Source: a virus. From it: a stretch of 25,012 bases of DNA. The notes beneath the pieces were generated by a model. The model made no database searches and had not been told where the DNA came from. It worked only from the letters and a program-made list of their open reading frames with translations. Positions 1 to 24,039 of the stretch are shown piece after piece (the stretch's first letter is position 1; each line of letters begins with the position of its first letter). The stretch lies in IMG/VR virus record IMGVR_UViG_3300009008_000230, positions 1 through 25,012 of that record; one strand, 5' to 3'. A program made the translations under genes and the position numbers.

Positions 1-1
1 T

Positions 2-1183
2 TTGCATAATAGTGCGAAGAAGTACAAGAATGCTGAGGAGTTTAAAGCAAGAGGATTTGATGAGATATTAAAAGATGTTAGGGGAGTTGAACGAGATAGC
101 GTTGTAACAATTCCTACAGATAAAGTTGAGATAAAATGGAAAGATGACTACAAAAACGCATTAGATACAGCTAAGAAAGATTATAATCCAAAAACAGCAC
201 TTCCAGTAGATTTGATATATGATTTTAAGAAAGATAAATATATTTTGGATGATGGTCATAATAGATATGTTTCTGCTCAAAGGAATAATCAGCCAATAAA
301 AGGTGTTGTCCAACATATAGAAGGCAATATGGAGGAATTAGCTGATTTATATAAGAAAGAAAAAGGTGAATCTATCACCGACATCTGGAACAAGGCAAAC
401 AAGGTTGACCCACTAACCGAAGAGGCGAAGAAGTACAAGAGTGCTGAGGAGTTTGTGGCGAGCCAAGATATCTCTGCGGTATCTGACTATTATACAGATA
501 CAGGAGAAGCAAGAGAATTGGCACATAAAGCAAAAAAAGGAGATCCTGTGGCTATTTCTAAAATGGCGGAAGAAATGGCAATCCTTGTTCCTAAAGAAAC
601 AACGCTTATCCCTGTTCCTTCTTCTTTAGGAAAAGCAACAATAACAAAAGAACTTGTGGATAAAATAGCAGAAATTACAGGAAGCAAAGTTGCTGACATA
701 GTTACAGGGAACAAGAGAGCATCATTGTACTCATTAAAGAAAAAGGGAAAGTCTTTAAGTAAAGACGAGCTAGGATTTAAGCTATCTGCAACAGTTCCTA
801 AAGGCAAATATATGATAGTTGATACTGTTTTGGGAACAGGAACAACTATGCGAGCCATTAAGGGCATTCTTCCTAATGCGAGGATTTTAGTTCACAGTAT
901 TGACAAGCAACAACTCACCGACATCTGGAACAAGGCAAACAAGGCAGACCCAGGCGAGACTTTATCAGGAGCAAAAGAGACAGGCATCAATGCTGGTGAT
1001 TGGGTCACGCAAAGTAGAAAGTATGCCGAAGAACATGGGCAACGGCACCTTGGCGAAACAGCAAATGATTTTGAGCTTGCCAGAGAAGGTGTGCAGTTCA
1101 AGATAATTGAGCAGGAAGTTTATGCGGATGAACTGTTTAGCGAGGGCAACAGCATCCATGAATGGGGCTATGACCCTCGATAA
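2..1183 (+). CDS. Modular polyvalent-type protein with ParB-like and phosphoribosyltransferase domains (5'-partial)
   Basis: The frame is open to the left edge, so the true start is probably outside the window and this is a C-terminal part of at least 393 residues. Counting from base 2, a YKNAEEF linker (residues ~5-14) leads into a ParB/sulfiredoxin-like domain with DDGHNR at 83-88. A TDIWNKANK linker (~125-135) is followed at once by a second linker pair (YKSAEEF at ~144; TDIWNKANK at ~305-315) enclosing a phosphoribosyltransferase-like domain with the PRPP-loop-like VDTVLGTGTT at 273-282. The last ~75 residues hold GDWVTQSRKYAEEHG and end in SIHEWGYDPR, resembling the tails of phage polyvalent proteins. 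The two cargo stretches are clearly AT-rich compared with the rest of the window, suggesting recent acquisition. Polyvalent proteins are thought to be injected with phage DNA; that role here is inference. Domain calls rest on motifs only. Confidence 0.8.
   Translation: MHNSAKKYKNAEEFKARGFDEILKDVRGVERDSVVTIPTDKVEIKWKDDYKNALDTAKKDYNPKTALPVDLIYDFKKDKYILDDGHNRYVSAQRNNQPIKGVVQHIEGNMEELADLYKKEKGESITDIWNKANKVDPLTEEAKKYKSAEEFVASQDISAVSDYYTDTGEARELAHKAKKGDPVAISKMAEEMAILVPKETTLIPVPSSLGKATITKELVDKIAEITGSKVADIVTGNKRASLYSLKKKGKSLSKDELGFKLSATVPKGKYMIVDTVLGTGTTMRAIKGILPNARILVHSIDKQQLTDIWNKANKADPGETLSGAKETGINAGDWVTQSRKYAEEHGQRHLGETANDFELAREGVQFKIIEQEVYADELFSEGNSIHEWGYDPR
14..43 (+). repeat. Left linker repeat, copy 1
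   Basis: Bases 14-43 match 425-454 at 29 of 30 positions; only the 17th base differs (a versus g). Both encode the KKYK(N/S)AEEF linker and sit in the same frame. In each case the DNA directly downstream is AT-rich and unrelated between the copies. Confidence 0.85.
375..404 (+). repeat. Right linker repeat, copy 1
   Basis: This 30-bp stretch, encoding the TDIWNKANK linker, recurs exactly at 915-944, 540 bp away and in the same frame. It closes the ParB-like cassette; the second left linker begins only ~20 bp later. Confidence 0.88.
425..454 (+). repeat. Left linker repeat, copy 2
   Basis: Second copy of the KKYK(N/S)AEEF-encoding linker, 29/30 identical to 14-43. It opens the phosphoribosyltransferase cassette. 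Confidence 0.85.
915..944 (+). repeat. Right linker repeat, copy 2
   Basis: Exact 30-bp copy of 375-404, encoding TDIWNKANK. It closes the phosphoribosyltransferase cassette and joins it to the C-terminal GDWVTQ...SIHEWGYDPR module. Confidence 0.88.
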
Positions 1184-1816: not shown

Positions 1817-1844
1817 AGATTTTTCAACTACATGGTGAATGACT

Positions 1845-2921
1845 ATGGCTGATGTACAACCGGCAACGCCGGATACCTCTCAGTTGCCAGCGGACCTTAG
1901 TGTTCACGAGGCAGCAGACCTTTTAGCAAAGTATCGGACTGAACCCCAGAAACTGGGGGAGTCAGCAGCCGAGAATGCCGAGAGTGTTATCGAGGAAATC
2001 CCTGACCAAGAGCAACCGGAAGAGATCGAAGCGGTCGATCCGGACTCCTCTGAGGAAGGGTCGGATGAAGAAATCACCGAAGATGCCGAAGATGACCTGG
2101 AGTCTCTTGCCGAAGGCGAGGAAGACCAACCGGAAGACCTCGAGGCAGAACCGGAATTCTATGAGATTGAAGGCGAGGAAGTCTCGCTGGATACCATCAA
2201 GGAATGGCGCGAATCTGGAATGCGCCAGGATGAATTCACCCGCAAAACACAGGTACTTGCCCAGCAGACGCAATCAATAACTGAGATGGAGAAAAACCTG
2301 AATCAGTTTGCCCATGCGTCGGCGCAGCAGCACAAAGGAAGGCTCTCAAAGATCGAGGGCGCTCTGAAGCAGTACCAGTCGGTAGACTGGGCGCGTTTGG
2401 CATCAGATGACAATCAGAAGTTCACTGTTCACAAAGAGCAGTTTGAACAACTGAAACGTCAGTATGCCAGCGAGCAACGCGAATTCGCAGGATTTGCCAA
2501 GGGGTTTGATACCCTTTCTAAGCAAGTTACTGCGAAGAAAGCCGAAGCTGCCTACCCTGAGATCAAGCAACGGATCAAAGGGTGGAATGAGGGGCGCTAT
2601 CACGAGTTGCGTGAGTTTCTTACCGGAAAGCTGGGCGCTAACGTGAACCAGGTCAACAACATTACTGACCCATGGTTCTGGGAACTTGCAAATGCCGGCG
2701 TTACCTATCTCAGTGGAAAGAAGTTGAACACCGGGAAACGGAAGATACGACGGCCCACTAAAACACTCAAAGCGAAGGCACCTGTTGCAAAAGCAGATCC
2801 AAAAGGTACGGCCGACAAGGCTGGGCTTGAAGCCATCAGCAAATCCATGGGTTCAGCAAGGGATCAGATGGATGCTGGGGCGGCATTGCTGAAGCAGCGC
2901 AGGGGCAAGAGCAAAAGGTAA
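1845..2921 (+). CDS. Probable capsid scaffolding protein
   Basis: About 358 residues. The N-terminal third (residues ~20-125) is extremely acidic, rich in E and D (e.g. DSSEEGSDEEITEDAEDD). The middle is glutamine-rich and helical (LAQQTQSITEMEKNLNQF onward), and the C-terminus is basic and lysine-rich. This charge layout and the place directly before the major capsid gene are typical of podovirus scaffolds, which assemble inside the procapsid and then leave. Two in-frame ATGs are possible (1839 and 1845). I prefer 1845 because GGTGA at 1834-1838 lies 6 nt upstream of it. The function is inferred from composition and gene order, not from a recognised catalytic motif. Confidence 0.75.
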   Translation: MADVQPATPDTSQLPADLSVHEAADLLAKYRTEPQKLGESAAENAESVIEEIPDQEQPEEIEAVDPDSSEEGSDEEITEDAEDDLESLAEGEEDQPEDLEAEPEFYEIEGEEVSLDTIKEWRESGMRQDEFTRKTQVLAQQTQSITEMEKNLNQFAHASAQQHKGRLSKIEGALKQYQSVDWARLASDDNQKFTVHKEQFEQLKRQYASEQREFAGFAKGFDTLSKQVTAKKAEAAYPEIKQRIKGWNEGRYHELREFLTGKLGANVNQVNNITDPWFWELANAGVTYLSGKKLNTGKRKIRRPTKTLKAKAPVAKADPKGTADKAGLEAISKSMGSARDQMDAGAALLKQRRGKSKR

Positions 2922-2927
2922 AATACA

Positions 2928-3938
2928 ATGGCTACATTACAACATTCACGCGGTGCCGTTGCTGCTGATTCAGCAGTAGGGCCACCGTCAAATGTACATG
3001 ATACCCAGGGTGAGAAGGAAGATTTTTCCGATATTATCGGCCTGATCGCCCCCTACGATACCCCGGTTTACAGCACCCTCCGCAAGGTTGACGCTGTTGC
3101 CCCGGTGATCCACTGGCAGGAAGACGATCTCGCCGCCGCTGCATCCAATCCAGTTGCGGAAGGTGCGACGGTAACTATCGCCGCTCAGACTTCACCGGGG
3201 ATCTCGATCAACTACACTCAGTTGTTTGAGAAGACCGCATCTGTTTCCAGCACGGCCGAAGCCACTCAGTGGTACGGAAGAGCCTCAGAAATGGATTACC
3301 AGATTATGAAGAGGGGTCGGGAAATGAAGCGCGATGTAGAATTCGCGCTCGTTGGTTCCGGTGCCGCTGCTGCTGAAGGTAGTTCTGATGGTGAAGGTGG
3401 GATCACGGCCCGGACCATGGGATCTGCAGAATCGCTGATCTCGTCCGGTAACTCCAAAGCTCTTGGGGCAGCTACCAACGTCACAGAAGCAGATGTTCTG
3501 GAGAAACACCAGGACTGCTATGACAATGGTGGTGATCCCAACTGGATGCTGGTGTCTCCCGGCACTTCGACGGTTGTGGCAAACTTTGCCTACATCGATC
3601 CGACTACGACGTCATCCAATGGTGCGCGTCAACGACAGACTGAAGGCAATCGCCTGGTCAACATCGTTGAAATCTACCAGTCGCCGTTTGGCACGATGAC
3701 GGTTGTCACCGACAAATTCATCGAAGGCGCTGCAGGTGCTAGTGGCGATGAAACCGGTGTCAGCCTGTTGCTGTTGGAAACGGATCGCTGGGCGATTCCG
3801 GTTCTTCAGCCGATGCAGGTCGAGGATCTGGCGAAGGTCAGTCACTCCGAGGACAAACTCGTTTCTTGTGAGCTTTCACTGCTCCACGAGAATGAGAATT
3901 CTTCGGCAATCATCACCAACATCGATACGACTGCTTAA
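2928..3938 (+). CDS. Major capsid protein (SU10-type, DUF5309-like)
   Basis: 336 residues with the hallmarks of the SU10 major capsid family, an HK97-fold shell protein: an N-terminal segment with FSDIIGLIAPYDTPVYSTL (residues ~33-51), then IHWQEDDL, the ISINYTQLFEKTASVSSTAE stretch (~88-107), a MKRGREMKRDVEFALVGSG helix (~129-147) and a C-terminal domain containing SPFGTMTVVTDKF. The length is normal for the family. It lies straight after the scaffold-like gene and is followed by a strong intrinsic terminator, consistent with very high expression. The Shine-Dalgarno sequence is weak (AAAGGT before the ATG). The protein forms the icosahedral head. Family assignment is from recalled sequence features. 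Confidence 0.92.
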   Translation: MATLQHSRGAVAADSAVGPPSNVHDTQGEKEDFSDIIGLIAPYDTPVYSTLRKVDAVAPVIHWQEDDLAAAASNPVAEGATVTIAAQTSPGISINYTQLFEKTASVSSTAEATQWYGRASEMDYQIMKRGREMKRDVEFALVGSGAAAAEGSSDGEGGITARTMGSAESLISSGNSKALGAATNVTEADVLEKHQDCYDNGGDPNWMLVSPGTSTVVANFAYIDPTTTSSNGARQRQTEGNRLVNIVEIYQSPFGTMTVVTDKFIEGAAGASGDETGVSLLLLETDRWAIPVLQPMQVEDLAKVSHSEDKLVSCELSLLHENENSSAIITNIDTTA

Positions 3939-17735: not shown

Positions 17736-18065
17736 ATGAACATACCAGTCAAGGACATTGTCGTAACAGCATCCGGGGCCGTATTGGTGGCCGCAGTGCT
17801 GTGGCTTGCGGCAAACATGGTATTTGCCAGTGACCTGAAGCAGGTTGAAAAGGACATAGAAACAGCCAGAACAGAAGTGACGGGAGAAGTGAACGAGGTA
17901 AAGCAGATTGTGCTACGCAGGGAACTTCGGGATATCTCCCGAGATTTGCGTATGCTCGACGCCCAGGCTGACCTTTCGCCGGCAGAGTCCAGTTATCGCG
18001 CCCAGCTTGAAACTGACCTTGACGTTGCCCAGACCCAGATGGATGAGATTCTCGATGACGATTAG
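17736..18065 (+). CDS. Spanin-like (Rz-type) membrane protein candidate
   Basis: 109 residues. A single N-terminal hydrophobic segment (~8-30: IVVTASGAVLVAAVLWLAANMVF) is followed by a long charged coiled-coil-like region (LKQVEKDIETARTEVTGEVN, then KQIVLRRELRDISRDLRMLD). This is the layout of inner-membrane spanin subunits, which link inner and outer membranes in the last step of lysis of Gram-negative cells. No outer-membrane lipoprotein partner is evident nearby, so the call is tentative. Its final codons and TAG stop lie in the first copy of a 15-bp repeat (18058-18072) and overlap the methyltransferase start. Confidence 0.6.
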   Translation: MNIPVKDIVVTASGAVLVAAVLWLAANMVFASDLKQVEKDIETARTEVTGEVNEVKQIVLRRELRDISRDLRMLDAQADLSPAESSYRAQLETDLDVAQTQMDEILDDD

Positions 18066-18621
18066 GGCAATTGATGTCCACCGTATTGTTCTGCCTCCTG
18101 TTTTGGATGCCTGTTGTTCAACTCGGATGATGTGGTTCGATAAACAAGATACCCGCGCCCTATACATAGACAAAAGGAAGGGGACAAGAGTGATCGATGT
18201 TGGAACGCCAGGAACAAAAGGCAGAAAGCCAAAAACGGTTGCGCCTGATGTCTTGGCAGATTTTCGGGAAATGCCATTCCCTGACGAGTCATTTGACCAT
18301 GTGGTTTTCGATCCTCCGCACTTCTATAAAGGCGCAGGGAAAACGGGAAGAATCGCATTCGATTTTGGACTACTGGAAGAAACATGGCGCGATGATTTAC
18401 GGCAAGGATTCGCCGAGTGCTTCCGAGTGCTGCGGGATCGTGGAACGCTGATTTTTAAATGGTGCGAAGTGGAAACTCCATTACGCGAAGTATTGGCACT
18501 TACGCCAGAAAAACCACTTTACGGTCACCGAAGCGGCAAGAAGGCAATGACACATTGGGTGGCATTCATTAAGCAGAACAAAGAGCTGAGTGGCGGAACG
18601 TCCACTCAAGCGGGAAGTTAA
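18055..18621 (+). CDS. Class I SAM-dependent methyltransferase-like protein
   Basis: 188 residues from the ATG at 18055, inside the end of the preceding gene; the frame is open from 17908, but homology-like sequence begins near 18055. LDACCSTRMMWFD (17-29) and PFPDESFDHVVFDPPHF (74-90) are hallmarks of a small phage methyltransferase group: the DPPHF sequence corresponds to the DPPY-type catalytic motif. ECFRVLRDRGTLIFKWCEVE and PLYGHRSGKKAMTHW are also typical. Such enzymes probably methylate DNA bases and may protect phage DNA. The substrate is unknown. It is the last plus-strand gene of the late block and is bracketed by 15-bp direct repeats, suggesting insertion as a unit. Confidence 0.78.
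   Translation: MTIRAIDVHRIVLPPVLDACCSTRMMWFDKQDTRALYIDKRKGTRVIDVGTPGTKGRKPKTVAPDVLADFREMPFPDESFDHVVFDPPHFYKGAGKTGRIAFDFGLLEETWRDDLRQGFAECFRVLRDRGTLIFKWCEVETPLREVLALTPEKPLYGHRSGKKAMTHWVAFIKQNKELSGGTSTQAGS
18058..18072 (+). repeat. 15-bp direct repeat, left copy
   Basis: The sequence acgattagggcaatt occurs here and exactly at 18675-18689. This copy contains the spanin-like gene's TAG stop and the start region of the methyltransferase. Confidence 0.85.
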
Positions 18622-22698: not shown

Positions 22699-22832
22699 TC
22701 CACAAAGACTACGCCGACCGTTGGACAGACGAACGCAACGAATGGCTGCTCAACGATAACTCAGCGGCTATTGCCGGCTTCTTTTACGGCGCGTTAAGCG
22801 TGTTTGTGGCCTTTGTTGCGCTGGCGCAATGA
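22695..22832 (+). CDS. Small membrane protein, 45 aa
   Basis: A GTG start overlaps the preceding TGA. The 45-residue product has a charged N-terminus (MIHKDYADRWTDERNEWLLN) and a C-terminal hydrophobic segment (AAIAGFFYGALSVFVAFVAL, ~24-43). Its TGA overlaps the ATG of the ERF gene. A membrane anchor or early envelope factor is possible; no family is recognised. Confidence 0.55.
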   Translation: MIHKDYADRWTDERNEWLLNDNSAAIAGFFYGALSVFVAFVALAQ

Positions 22833-23485
22833 ATGACGCTGTTGAAATTTATGATGATGGTGCTGCTTGGCATCAGAACGAACTTGAAGGCCGACAGGCC
22901 GAGGAGACTGAAATGTTAGAACAAAAGACAACAATGCACGGCGAGATCGGGCCGCTGTTTGAAGCACTGAGCAAGGCACAGGCTGAACTCGGTCCCGCTA
23001 TCAAGTCCAGCACTAACCCGCATTTCAAATCCAGTTATGCCGACCTGACCGCGAACCTTGAGACCGCTCTGCCGGTATTGGCAAAGCACGGTCTTTCGTT
23101 GATCCAGCTACCAGGCAACAAGGACGGCATGGTGACGGTCACAACTATACTCGGGCACAAGGATGGCGCGTATATTCAGGGCATTTTCGGTATGGCTCCT
23201 AACAAGCCGGGGCCACACTCGGTTGCTTCGTGCGTGACCTACCTTCGTCGGTACTCACTGAGTATTTATGGCGCGTTCGCTGACGATGATGACGCTAACA
23301 CGGCGCAGAACGAGGGCAAAATTGAGACCGACCTCGAGGCGACCAAGGCCAAACTGACCAAGGCCAAGGATCTCAAGAAAGAGTGGGCGGGATTGCAACC
23401 TGCCGAGCGCAGAGCAATAGCCGATAACGCGTCAACCTGGTGGGCCGGACTAAAAGACTCCCGCGCAGAAAAGGCCGCAGCGTGA
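22829..23485 (+). CDS. ERF-family single-strand annealing recombinase
   Basis: 218 residues. The core motifs are SSTNPHFKSSYADLTANLET (60-79), VTTILGHKDGAYIQGIFGM, and SVASCVTYLRRYSLSIYGAF followed by ADDDDA (131-156), all typical of ERF proteins such as that of P22. These form rings on single-stranded DNA and anneal complementary strands in phage recombination. An inner ATG at 22913 is an alternative start; 22829 is favoured by the overlap with the upstream stop. It is followed directly by a YqaJ exonuclease, its expected partner. Confidence 0.9.
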   Translation: MNDAVEIYDDGAAWHQNELEGRQAEETEMLEQKTTMHGEIGPLFEALSKAQAELGPAIKSSTNPHFKSSYADLTANLETALPVLAKHGLSLIQLPGNKDGMVTVTTILGHKDGAYIQGIFGMAPNKPGPHSVASCVTYLRRYSLSIYGAFADDDDANTAQNEGKIETDLEATKAKLTKAKDLKKEWAGLQPAERRAIADNASTWWAGLKDSRAEKAAA

Positions 23486-24039
23486 AACTGACCGCCTCAA
23501 ATTTCGGCGCGGCACTTGGCCTGAGTCCGTGGCAATCCCGGCAGAAGCTATTCCGAGTCATGCTTGGCATTGAACCTCGCGACCCCATGAACGCAAATAT
23601 GCAGTGGGGAATCGATAACGAACTAACCGCCGTTGCTGGAGTAGAGGCGCACACCGGGATCGTGTTCGATTTCACCGGCAAGAATCAGCGGCACCTGACC
23701 GTCGAGATTGACGGGGTGACCTTGGGCGCTACGCCGGACGGGTCATGCGGCAGTACAGGGATCGAGGTCAAGTGCCCGTCAAAACTACCCGACGAAATCC
23801 CGCCGCACTATGTCCCGCAGATATTAGGCCAATGCCTTATCGCTGGGTTTGACAGCGTGTTCTTTTCGGCATGGACGCCGACCGAGCAGCGTATCTGGCA
23901 CGTCCCGCGTTCCAGCGAATACATCGAATTCATGTTGCCGCTTCTGACTGAGTTTATCGACTACCTGAAAAGCGACACCGAGCCGAAGCGCAAGAAGAAA
24001 GTAATACCACCTGATTTTGAAAATGAGAGGATATTGTAA
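23482..24039 (+). CDS. YqaJ-like (lambda Exo-type) recombination exonuclease
   Basis: 185 residues from a GTG overlapping the ERF stop; the frame is open from 23440. Features of YqaJ/lambda Exo nucleases are visible: LTASNFGAALGLSPWQSR (3-20), WGIDNELTA with Glu-47, GATPDG with Asp-86 and GIEVKCPS with Glu-95 and Lys-97, then HYVPQILGQCLIAGFDS (109-125). These enzymes digest one strand of linear DNA to feed an annealing protein, here the ERF protein. All catalytic residues appear intact. Its TAA shares a base with the following ATG. Confidence 0.9.
   Translation: MKLTASNFGAALGLSPWQSRQKLFRVMLGIEPRDPMNANMQWGIDNELTAVAGVEAHTGIVFDFTGKNQRHLTVEIDGVTLGATPDGSCGSTGIEVKCPSKLPDEIPPHYVPQILGQCLIAGFDSVFFSAWTPTEQRIWHVPRSSEYIEFMLPLLTEFIDYLKSDTEPKRKKKVIPPDFENERIL

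Follow-up and report, generated by a model that had tools for sequence, protein, structure and literature searches.

Polyvalent proteins are large multidomain proteins of phages and conjugative elements. Their description (Iyer et al. 2017, PMC5512222) names ART, ParB/ddrB, phosphoribosyltransferase, nucleotidyltransferase and GNAT domains, places the genes in many cases close to virion genes, and considers that cassettes might recombine at kinase loci. Domains of these kinds recur among the units compared here, the first two of which belong to a gene at the start of the IMG/VR virus record IMGVR_UViG_3300009008_000230 (25,012 bases, the complete record, hereafter the window; contigs used for comparison carry L numbers). 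An initial annotation of this DNA had described two unrelated AT-rich domains, each enclosed by the same pair of near-identical linkers, and had suggested that recombination between linkers swaps or adds cargo domains. Our comparisons make it likely that these units are mobile domain cassettes, kept in frame, which are exchanged by annealing at their conserved ends and occasionally inserted anew. The word linker is absent from the full text of the polyvalent protein paper, and the parts of it drawn on here contain neither DNA-conserved cassette ends nor target-site duplications.

Other described systems resemble the cassettes in single respects. In the hsdS genes of type I restriction systems, in-frame domains exchange or move through recombination at conserved sequence (PMC3077401). 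The cassettes differ in occurring in many host genes, with many cargo folds, in arrays and with direct repeats at insertion sites. Domain movement in hsdS concerns one gene family, fixed positions and one domain type. In polymorphic toxins and contact-dependent growth inhibition (CDI) systems, cargo is likewise replaced by recombination beside a conserved motif (PMC3482391, PMC7662968), but these have one conserved side and C-terminal modules only, whereas the cassettes have two conserved ends and are internal and tandem. The in-frame repeats called palindromic amphipathic repeat coding elements (PARCEL) are, like the cassettes, DNA-conserved sequences inserting in frame into unrelated genes (PMC2996958). 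They are short and without exchangeable cargo, whereas the cassettes keep their ends and vary their cargo. Rickettsia palindromic elements are also short, DNA-conserved in-frame inserts in unrelated genes and lack exchangeable cargo. Integron cassettes are promoterless, arrayed and furnished with conserved recombination sequences, and they are whole genes inserted by IntI at attC/attI. In contrast, the units described here are in-frame domains with linkers inside the reading frame, and no integrase turned up, although none was systematically searched for.

In this limited literature, two DNA-conserved ends, variable in-frame cargo and tandem arrays do not occur together with insertion at many sites in any of the compared systems, and we found no description of such cassettes in the openly licensed literature of PubMed Central. 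On balance, we lean towards the view that unrelated uncultivated phages share an undescribed class of mobile DNA, whose ends would be both protein joints and a common recombination standard for exchanging, stacking and inserting effector domains. Such a class would provide a concrete carrier for phage protein modularity, a shared DNA connector moving domains between unrelated viruses and comparable, at the scale of domains, to what integrons are for genes. It would also account for the gain of new anti-host domains by polyvalent proteins, and the linkers would serve as a sequence handle for collecting effector domains from metagenomic data. How in-frame domain shuffling comes about would become directly testable.

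Two linker-bounded cassettes in the window

All linker pairs of the window lie within a single open frame (2-1183; Table 1). As the window takes up the entire virus record, the 5' part of this frame is missing. A full-length version of the protein, with 847 amino acids, is present in the near-identical contigs L002 and L003 and is 100% identical over the shared 393 residues. A repeat search of the window returned the linker agreement exactly as first annotated: the left linkers agree at 29/30 bases (97%), and the right repeats (375-412 and 915-952) are 95% identical over 38 bp, with their first 30 bp identical (30/30). Repeats of 30 bp this similar within a few kilobases are not expected by chance for a sequence of this length. 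The cargos are AT-rich, also as annotated, their GC contents (Table 1) standing against 0.553 in the upstream host gene and about 0.52-0.54 in the remainder. An intein was considered on account of the sequence HNS at the left edge of the array, but other cassettes carry DPLIEEAKK at this place.

The first cargo adopts a ParB/sulfiredoxin fold in an AlphaFold model of good confidence (Foldseek probability 1.00, E 3e-3). The second gave weak phosphoribosyltransferase matches around the phosphoribosyl pyrophosphate (PRPP) loop (Pfam Pribosyltran, E = 0.011; NCBIfam adenine phosphoribosyltransferase, E = 0.0095), and its structure model was too poor for use (predicted local distance difference test, pLDDT, 40). 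No relation between the two was detected. The annotated pair of unrelated domains thus holds, the ParB-like identity being borne out by the model, while the phosphoribosyltransferase-like identity is tentative on these weak matches.

Adjacent cassettes with nearly identical linkers might also descend from a single cassette that was duplicated in tandem long ago and then diverged, a history to which we give hardly any credence. The two cargos seem to be unrelated, the ParB cassette also occurs in other contexts that lack the phosphoribosyltransferase-like one (L006, L007, L008 and L009; 75-79% DNA identity), and linkers of the same sequence occur in many unrelated phages. The pattern that the initial annotation had attached to such an origin, two domains in fixed order between linkers no better conserved than the cargo, was not seen: the recurrence of the ParB cassette departs from it, as does the conservation of synonymous sites in the linkers described below. 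A simple duplication of one cassette was rejected on account of the unrelated cargos.

Judged by sequence comparison, the two cassettes, together about 320 residues, sit in a loop of a host ART-like domain. They are placed inside this domain because matches to the phrog_2579 profile flank them (positions 332-405 before the cassettes and 409-462 after) and because homologues hold both halves of the domain without cassettes. These homologues are L047 and a 217-residue ART protein of the cultured Vibrio phage 1.081.O, whose loop at the corresponding position is itself longer. The label of phrog_2579, ParB C-terminal domain, covers the ART-like region, and this name seems misleading.

Table 1. Features of the cassette array and related genes in the window
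Feature	Positions	Strand	Basis
Outer edge of left end; contig start at assembly branch point	1..13	+	Window 1-119 shared with the end of L032, 1-43 with L118
Left linker, cassette 1 (AKKYKNAEEF)	14..43	+	Repeat and conservation profile
Cargo 1, ParB/sulfiredoxin-fold domain with DGHNR motif, GC 0.308	44..374	+	Model, GC
Right linker, cassette 1 (TDIWNKANK)	375..404	+	Repeat; conserved DNA core to 396, the exact end of contig L026
Spacer between cassettes 1 and 2 (VDPLTE)	405..424	+	Sequence
Left linker, cassette 2 (AKKYKSAEEF)	425..454	+	Repeat
Cargo 2, phosphoribosyltransferase-like, weakly supported, GC 0.383	455..914	+	VDTVLGTGTT PRPP-loop-like motif; weak matches
Right linker, cassette 2 (TDIWNKANK)	915..944	+	Repeat
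Outer part of right end (ADPGETLSG)	945..971	+	Common to L118 (window 909-971 at 96.8%)
Host ART-like domain, C-terminal part (GDWVTQSRKYAEEHG...HEWGYDPR), resuming after the cassettes	972..1183	+	Profile and homologue match
Head scaffolding protein, host-gene context	1839..2921	+	Family match
Major capsid protein (SU10-type), context	2928..3938	+	Family match
Erf-like single-strand annealing protein, candidate recombinase for exchange	22829..23485	+	Family match
RecE-like/YqaJ recombination exonuclease, candidate Erf partner	23440..24039	+	Family match

Cargo diversity and exchange between conserved linkers

The exact right-linker 22-mer occurs in 19 stretches of viral contigs, the synonymous-degenerate pattern for TDIWNKA in 85 and that for KYKxAEEF in at least 119. 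Profiles built from these pattern matches yielded 107 cassette units from uncultivated phages, and the distinct cargos collected, 119 in number and 42-234 amino acids long, fall into 47 blastp families. Among the cargos labelled by Pfam, ART-PolyVal is the commonest (30), and GNAT (3), nucleotidyltransferase (1), ParB_N and ddrB-ParB also appear; PHROGs labels many further cargos ParB-like, and many are unnamed. A search of metagenomic phages for the linkers had been proposed along with the initial annotation, and its outcome, many phages with a wide variety of cargo, agrees with the cassette reading. Cargo GC averages 5 points under the rest of the contig (105 units), suggesting that the cargo comes from a foreign, AT-rich source. 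No linkers were found in the cultured phages of INPHARED or the plasmids of PLSDB, and a scan of genome contigs returned mainly chance matches, with L206, L225, L242, L256 and L257 alone looking genuine. These five are binned into metagenome-assembled genomes from several bacterial groups and one archaeon, and are probably phage contigs. Queries with the outer sequences of both ends retrieved relatives of the window, together with L118 and one more contig, L194.

Three pairs of near-identical phage genes, with 97-100% DNA identity on both sides, hold different cargo between the same linkers. In L054 and L072, the sequence through the left linker is 99.6% identical and that beginning with the right linker 97.9%, and between them stand a ParB-like cargo and a different one that is ART-like by eye (YHGTPNK motif). 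The flanks of the cassettes in L143 and L181 are 98.8% and 99.0% identical, and both genes have the same mutated right linker (TCC for GAC), so the cargo changed here while the site retained its end. L064 and L082, identical (100%) over 978 bp on one side and at 97.3% over 3.9 kb on the other, carry a nucleotidyltransferase and an ART-like cargo, respectively, with an extra stretch before the left linker in L082. All three pairs thus show what domain exchange by homologous recombination leaves behind, identity on both sides, a different domain in between and breakpoints in the flanks, which here fall inside or at the edges of the linkers. These near-identical pairs differing only in cargo support the exchange proposed in the initial annotation, and extend it beyond the window.

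Cassettes are also shared between phages and differ in number between related genes. A 188-bp stretch that includes both linkers and a cargo of only about 43 amino acids is 98.4% identical in L025 and in L094/L038, with nothing else detectably shared. In L118, another phage, the extended ends found in the window (window 1-43 at 97.7% and 909-971 at 96.8% identity) enclose an ART-like cargo. Gain or loss of a whole cassette is seen in L020 and L027/L016, which agree through the right linker and diverge directly beyond it, where L020 continues with a further cassette and L027 with a stop codon.

The linkers might instead be a conserved peptide element, such as a helical hinge, packaging signal or processing site, with cargo diversity arising from ordinary mosaicism and DNA identity from recent ancestry. 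Their peptides are indeed kept in nearly all 119 cassettes, they are modelled as short helices beside the ParB domain, and phages normally recombine at conserved sequences (PMC3945230). Against this explanation, the linkers are conserved at synonymous sites far past codon usage. Third-position identity is 0.714 in the left linker and 0.564 in the right, compared with 0.495 and 0.489, respectively, when simulated from contig codon usage, each value lying above all 300 simulations. Among mutually host-unrelated loci, the corresponding values are 0.723 vs 0.501 for the left linker (n = 45) and 0.553 vs 0.492 for the right (n = 36), above all 500 simulations. Each glutamate of AEEF is encoded by GAG in 88/92 cases, where about 30 would be expected. 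Most of these loci were collected with the degenerate patterns, which are codon-neutral; the few that came from exact patterns introduce a minor bias. Going outward from the linkers, information content has reached background by about 30 bases. The breaks in identity of swapped pairs at the linker edges and the direct repeats flanking cassettes likewise count against the peptide explanation. We regard a purely peptide-level element as quite unlikely.

Probable insertion at new positions and candidate enzymes

Exact direct repeats of 12-26 bp flank 11/107 units, against 0.15 expected from a control that pairs flanks across loci; L024, L036, L037, L074, L113 and L139 are among the contigs with such sites. 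In the homologous genes L109 and L161, cassettes stand at different positions, each gene lacking the other's cassette. These comparisons suggest that cassettes also insert at new positions, the direct repeats resembling the target-site duplications of transposons. The cassettes are not confined to one gene family or position in the manner of hsdS and CDI modules, as the presence of the same cassette in unrelated phages and the reciprocal positions in L109 and L161 both illustrate. The longest direct repeat seen, of 26 bp (TCAGAAGAGAATTTAGACTTTTTGCA), flanks the cassette at 3065-3532 of L118, and part of it is also the left edge of the window array in L002.

On the reading that we favor, the region would consist of two mobile protein-domain cassettes standing in tandem and in frame. 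Each would be promoterless and stop-free, with a conserved left DNA end of about 45-50 nucleotides (coding for approximately PLIEEAKKYKSAEEFV), a cargo of about 40-235 amino acids and a conserved right DNA end of about 38 nucleotides (coding for KSQLTDIWNKA). Swapping would proceed by homologous, annealing-type recombination between the linkers of co-infecting phages, with Erf/RecE-like proteins as candidates here; because linker would anneal to linker, cassettes whose ends match the common sequence would spread best. Arrival at a new position would duplicate a short target, and only in-frame events would survive. Erf and its exonuclease have been shown experimentally to recombine sequences that are only 78% identical (PMC3945230). 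The window itself has an Erf-like gene and an overlapping RecE-like/YqaJ gene, which form a compact recombination module (22829-24039) of a kind suited to recombining short homologies.

Alternatively, a dedicated site-specific recombinase or transposase encoded elsewhere might recognize both ends, as in integron cassettes or non-autonomous transposons; the cassettes themselves encode cargo only. The presence of two distinct DNA-conserved ends, of 12-26 bp repeats that resemble target-site duplications and of the same cassette in unrelated phages would fit such an enzyme. In contrast, in-place swaps require no special enzyme, no enzyme common to the loci emerged from a limited search in which linked genes were not searched for transposases, and boundaries and repeat lengths vary. 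Hairpin or inverted-repeat ends were considered and set aside. The complementarity of the two ends is imperfect and only slightly above shuffled controls: the left:right linker duplex energy is -13.3 vs -12.2 for shuffled sequences and lower in 68/107 units, a difference that we judged weak. A stronger contrast, obtained against synonymous redraws, cannot be separated from the effect of linker GC content. We consider a dedicated enzyme a possible, though not a likely, account.

Several observations weigh against mobile cassettes swapped by annealing and occasionally inserted anew. Precise termini and a fixed duplication length, as expected of a transposon, are lacking: the repeats range from 12 to 26 bp and their distance from the linkers varies, a variation that speaks against a precise transposase. 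Around the window array there is only an AAGAGA-like repeat of 6-7 bp, as read from L002, and insertion with duplication is not seen there. No recombinase was common to the linker-bearing records, most of which are fragments (ERF in 4/40 and YqaJ in 3/40); RecT, as a candidate common recombinase, was rejected with 0/40. Part of the linker conservation may also come from selection on the peptide. Finally, all evidence for exchange is comparative and comes from metagenome assemblies.

In such assemblies, short repeats can lead an assembler to join unrelated phages, and several contigs do end at or near linkers, with exact 119-bp contig overlaps marking branch points of the assembly graph. The first 119 bases of the window match the end of L032 at 100% identity. 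L032 joins them to an unrelated reading frame, so that this cassette start has two upstream contexts, those of L002 and L032, which are unrelated to each other. Overlaps of this length locate the branch points at base 1 of the window and at base 396, where the conserved right linker ends. Nevertheless, chimerism is very improbable as the source of the architecture, which is identical in separate assemblies (L002, L003 and L028), while swapped pairs and direct repeats come from unrelated samples. Moreover, the 119-bp overlap exceeds the length of the linkers (about 40 bp), and branching at them therefore points to real sequence variants. Since the contig overlaps mark branch points at bases 1 and 396, the sampled populations would hold alternative neighbors at both places.

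Host gene and its neighborhood

The host gene lies between the portal and scaffold genes, with terminase and portal upstream, as seen in L198, and scaffold and SU10-type major capsid genes downstream. Like polyvalent proteins, its product has several effector-type domains in one polypeptide (the ART-like host domain, ParB and the phosphoribosyltransferase-like domain in the 847-residue frame) and is encoded near virion structural genes. To judge from precedent in this family, the protein probably combines several effectors and travels in the virion. A scan for relatives of the N-terminal part of the host gene gave near-identical contigs only.

The same gene has a second variable site, at which L026 (7544-8427) carries about 885 bp encoding an ART-like domain where L002 (5858-5898) has 41 bp. 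This site is not bounded by linkers, and contig L198 ends there. Elsewhere in the window, positions 17938-18621 hold a DNA methyltransferase-like gene (phrog_954, E = 4e-61).
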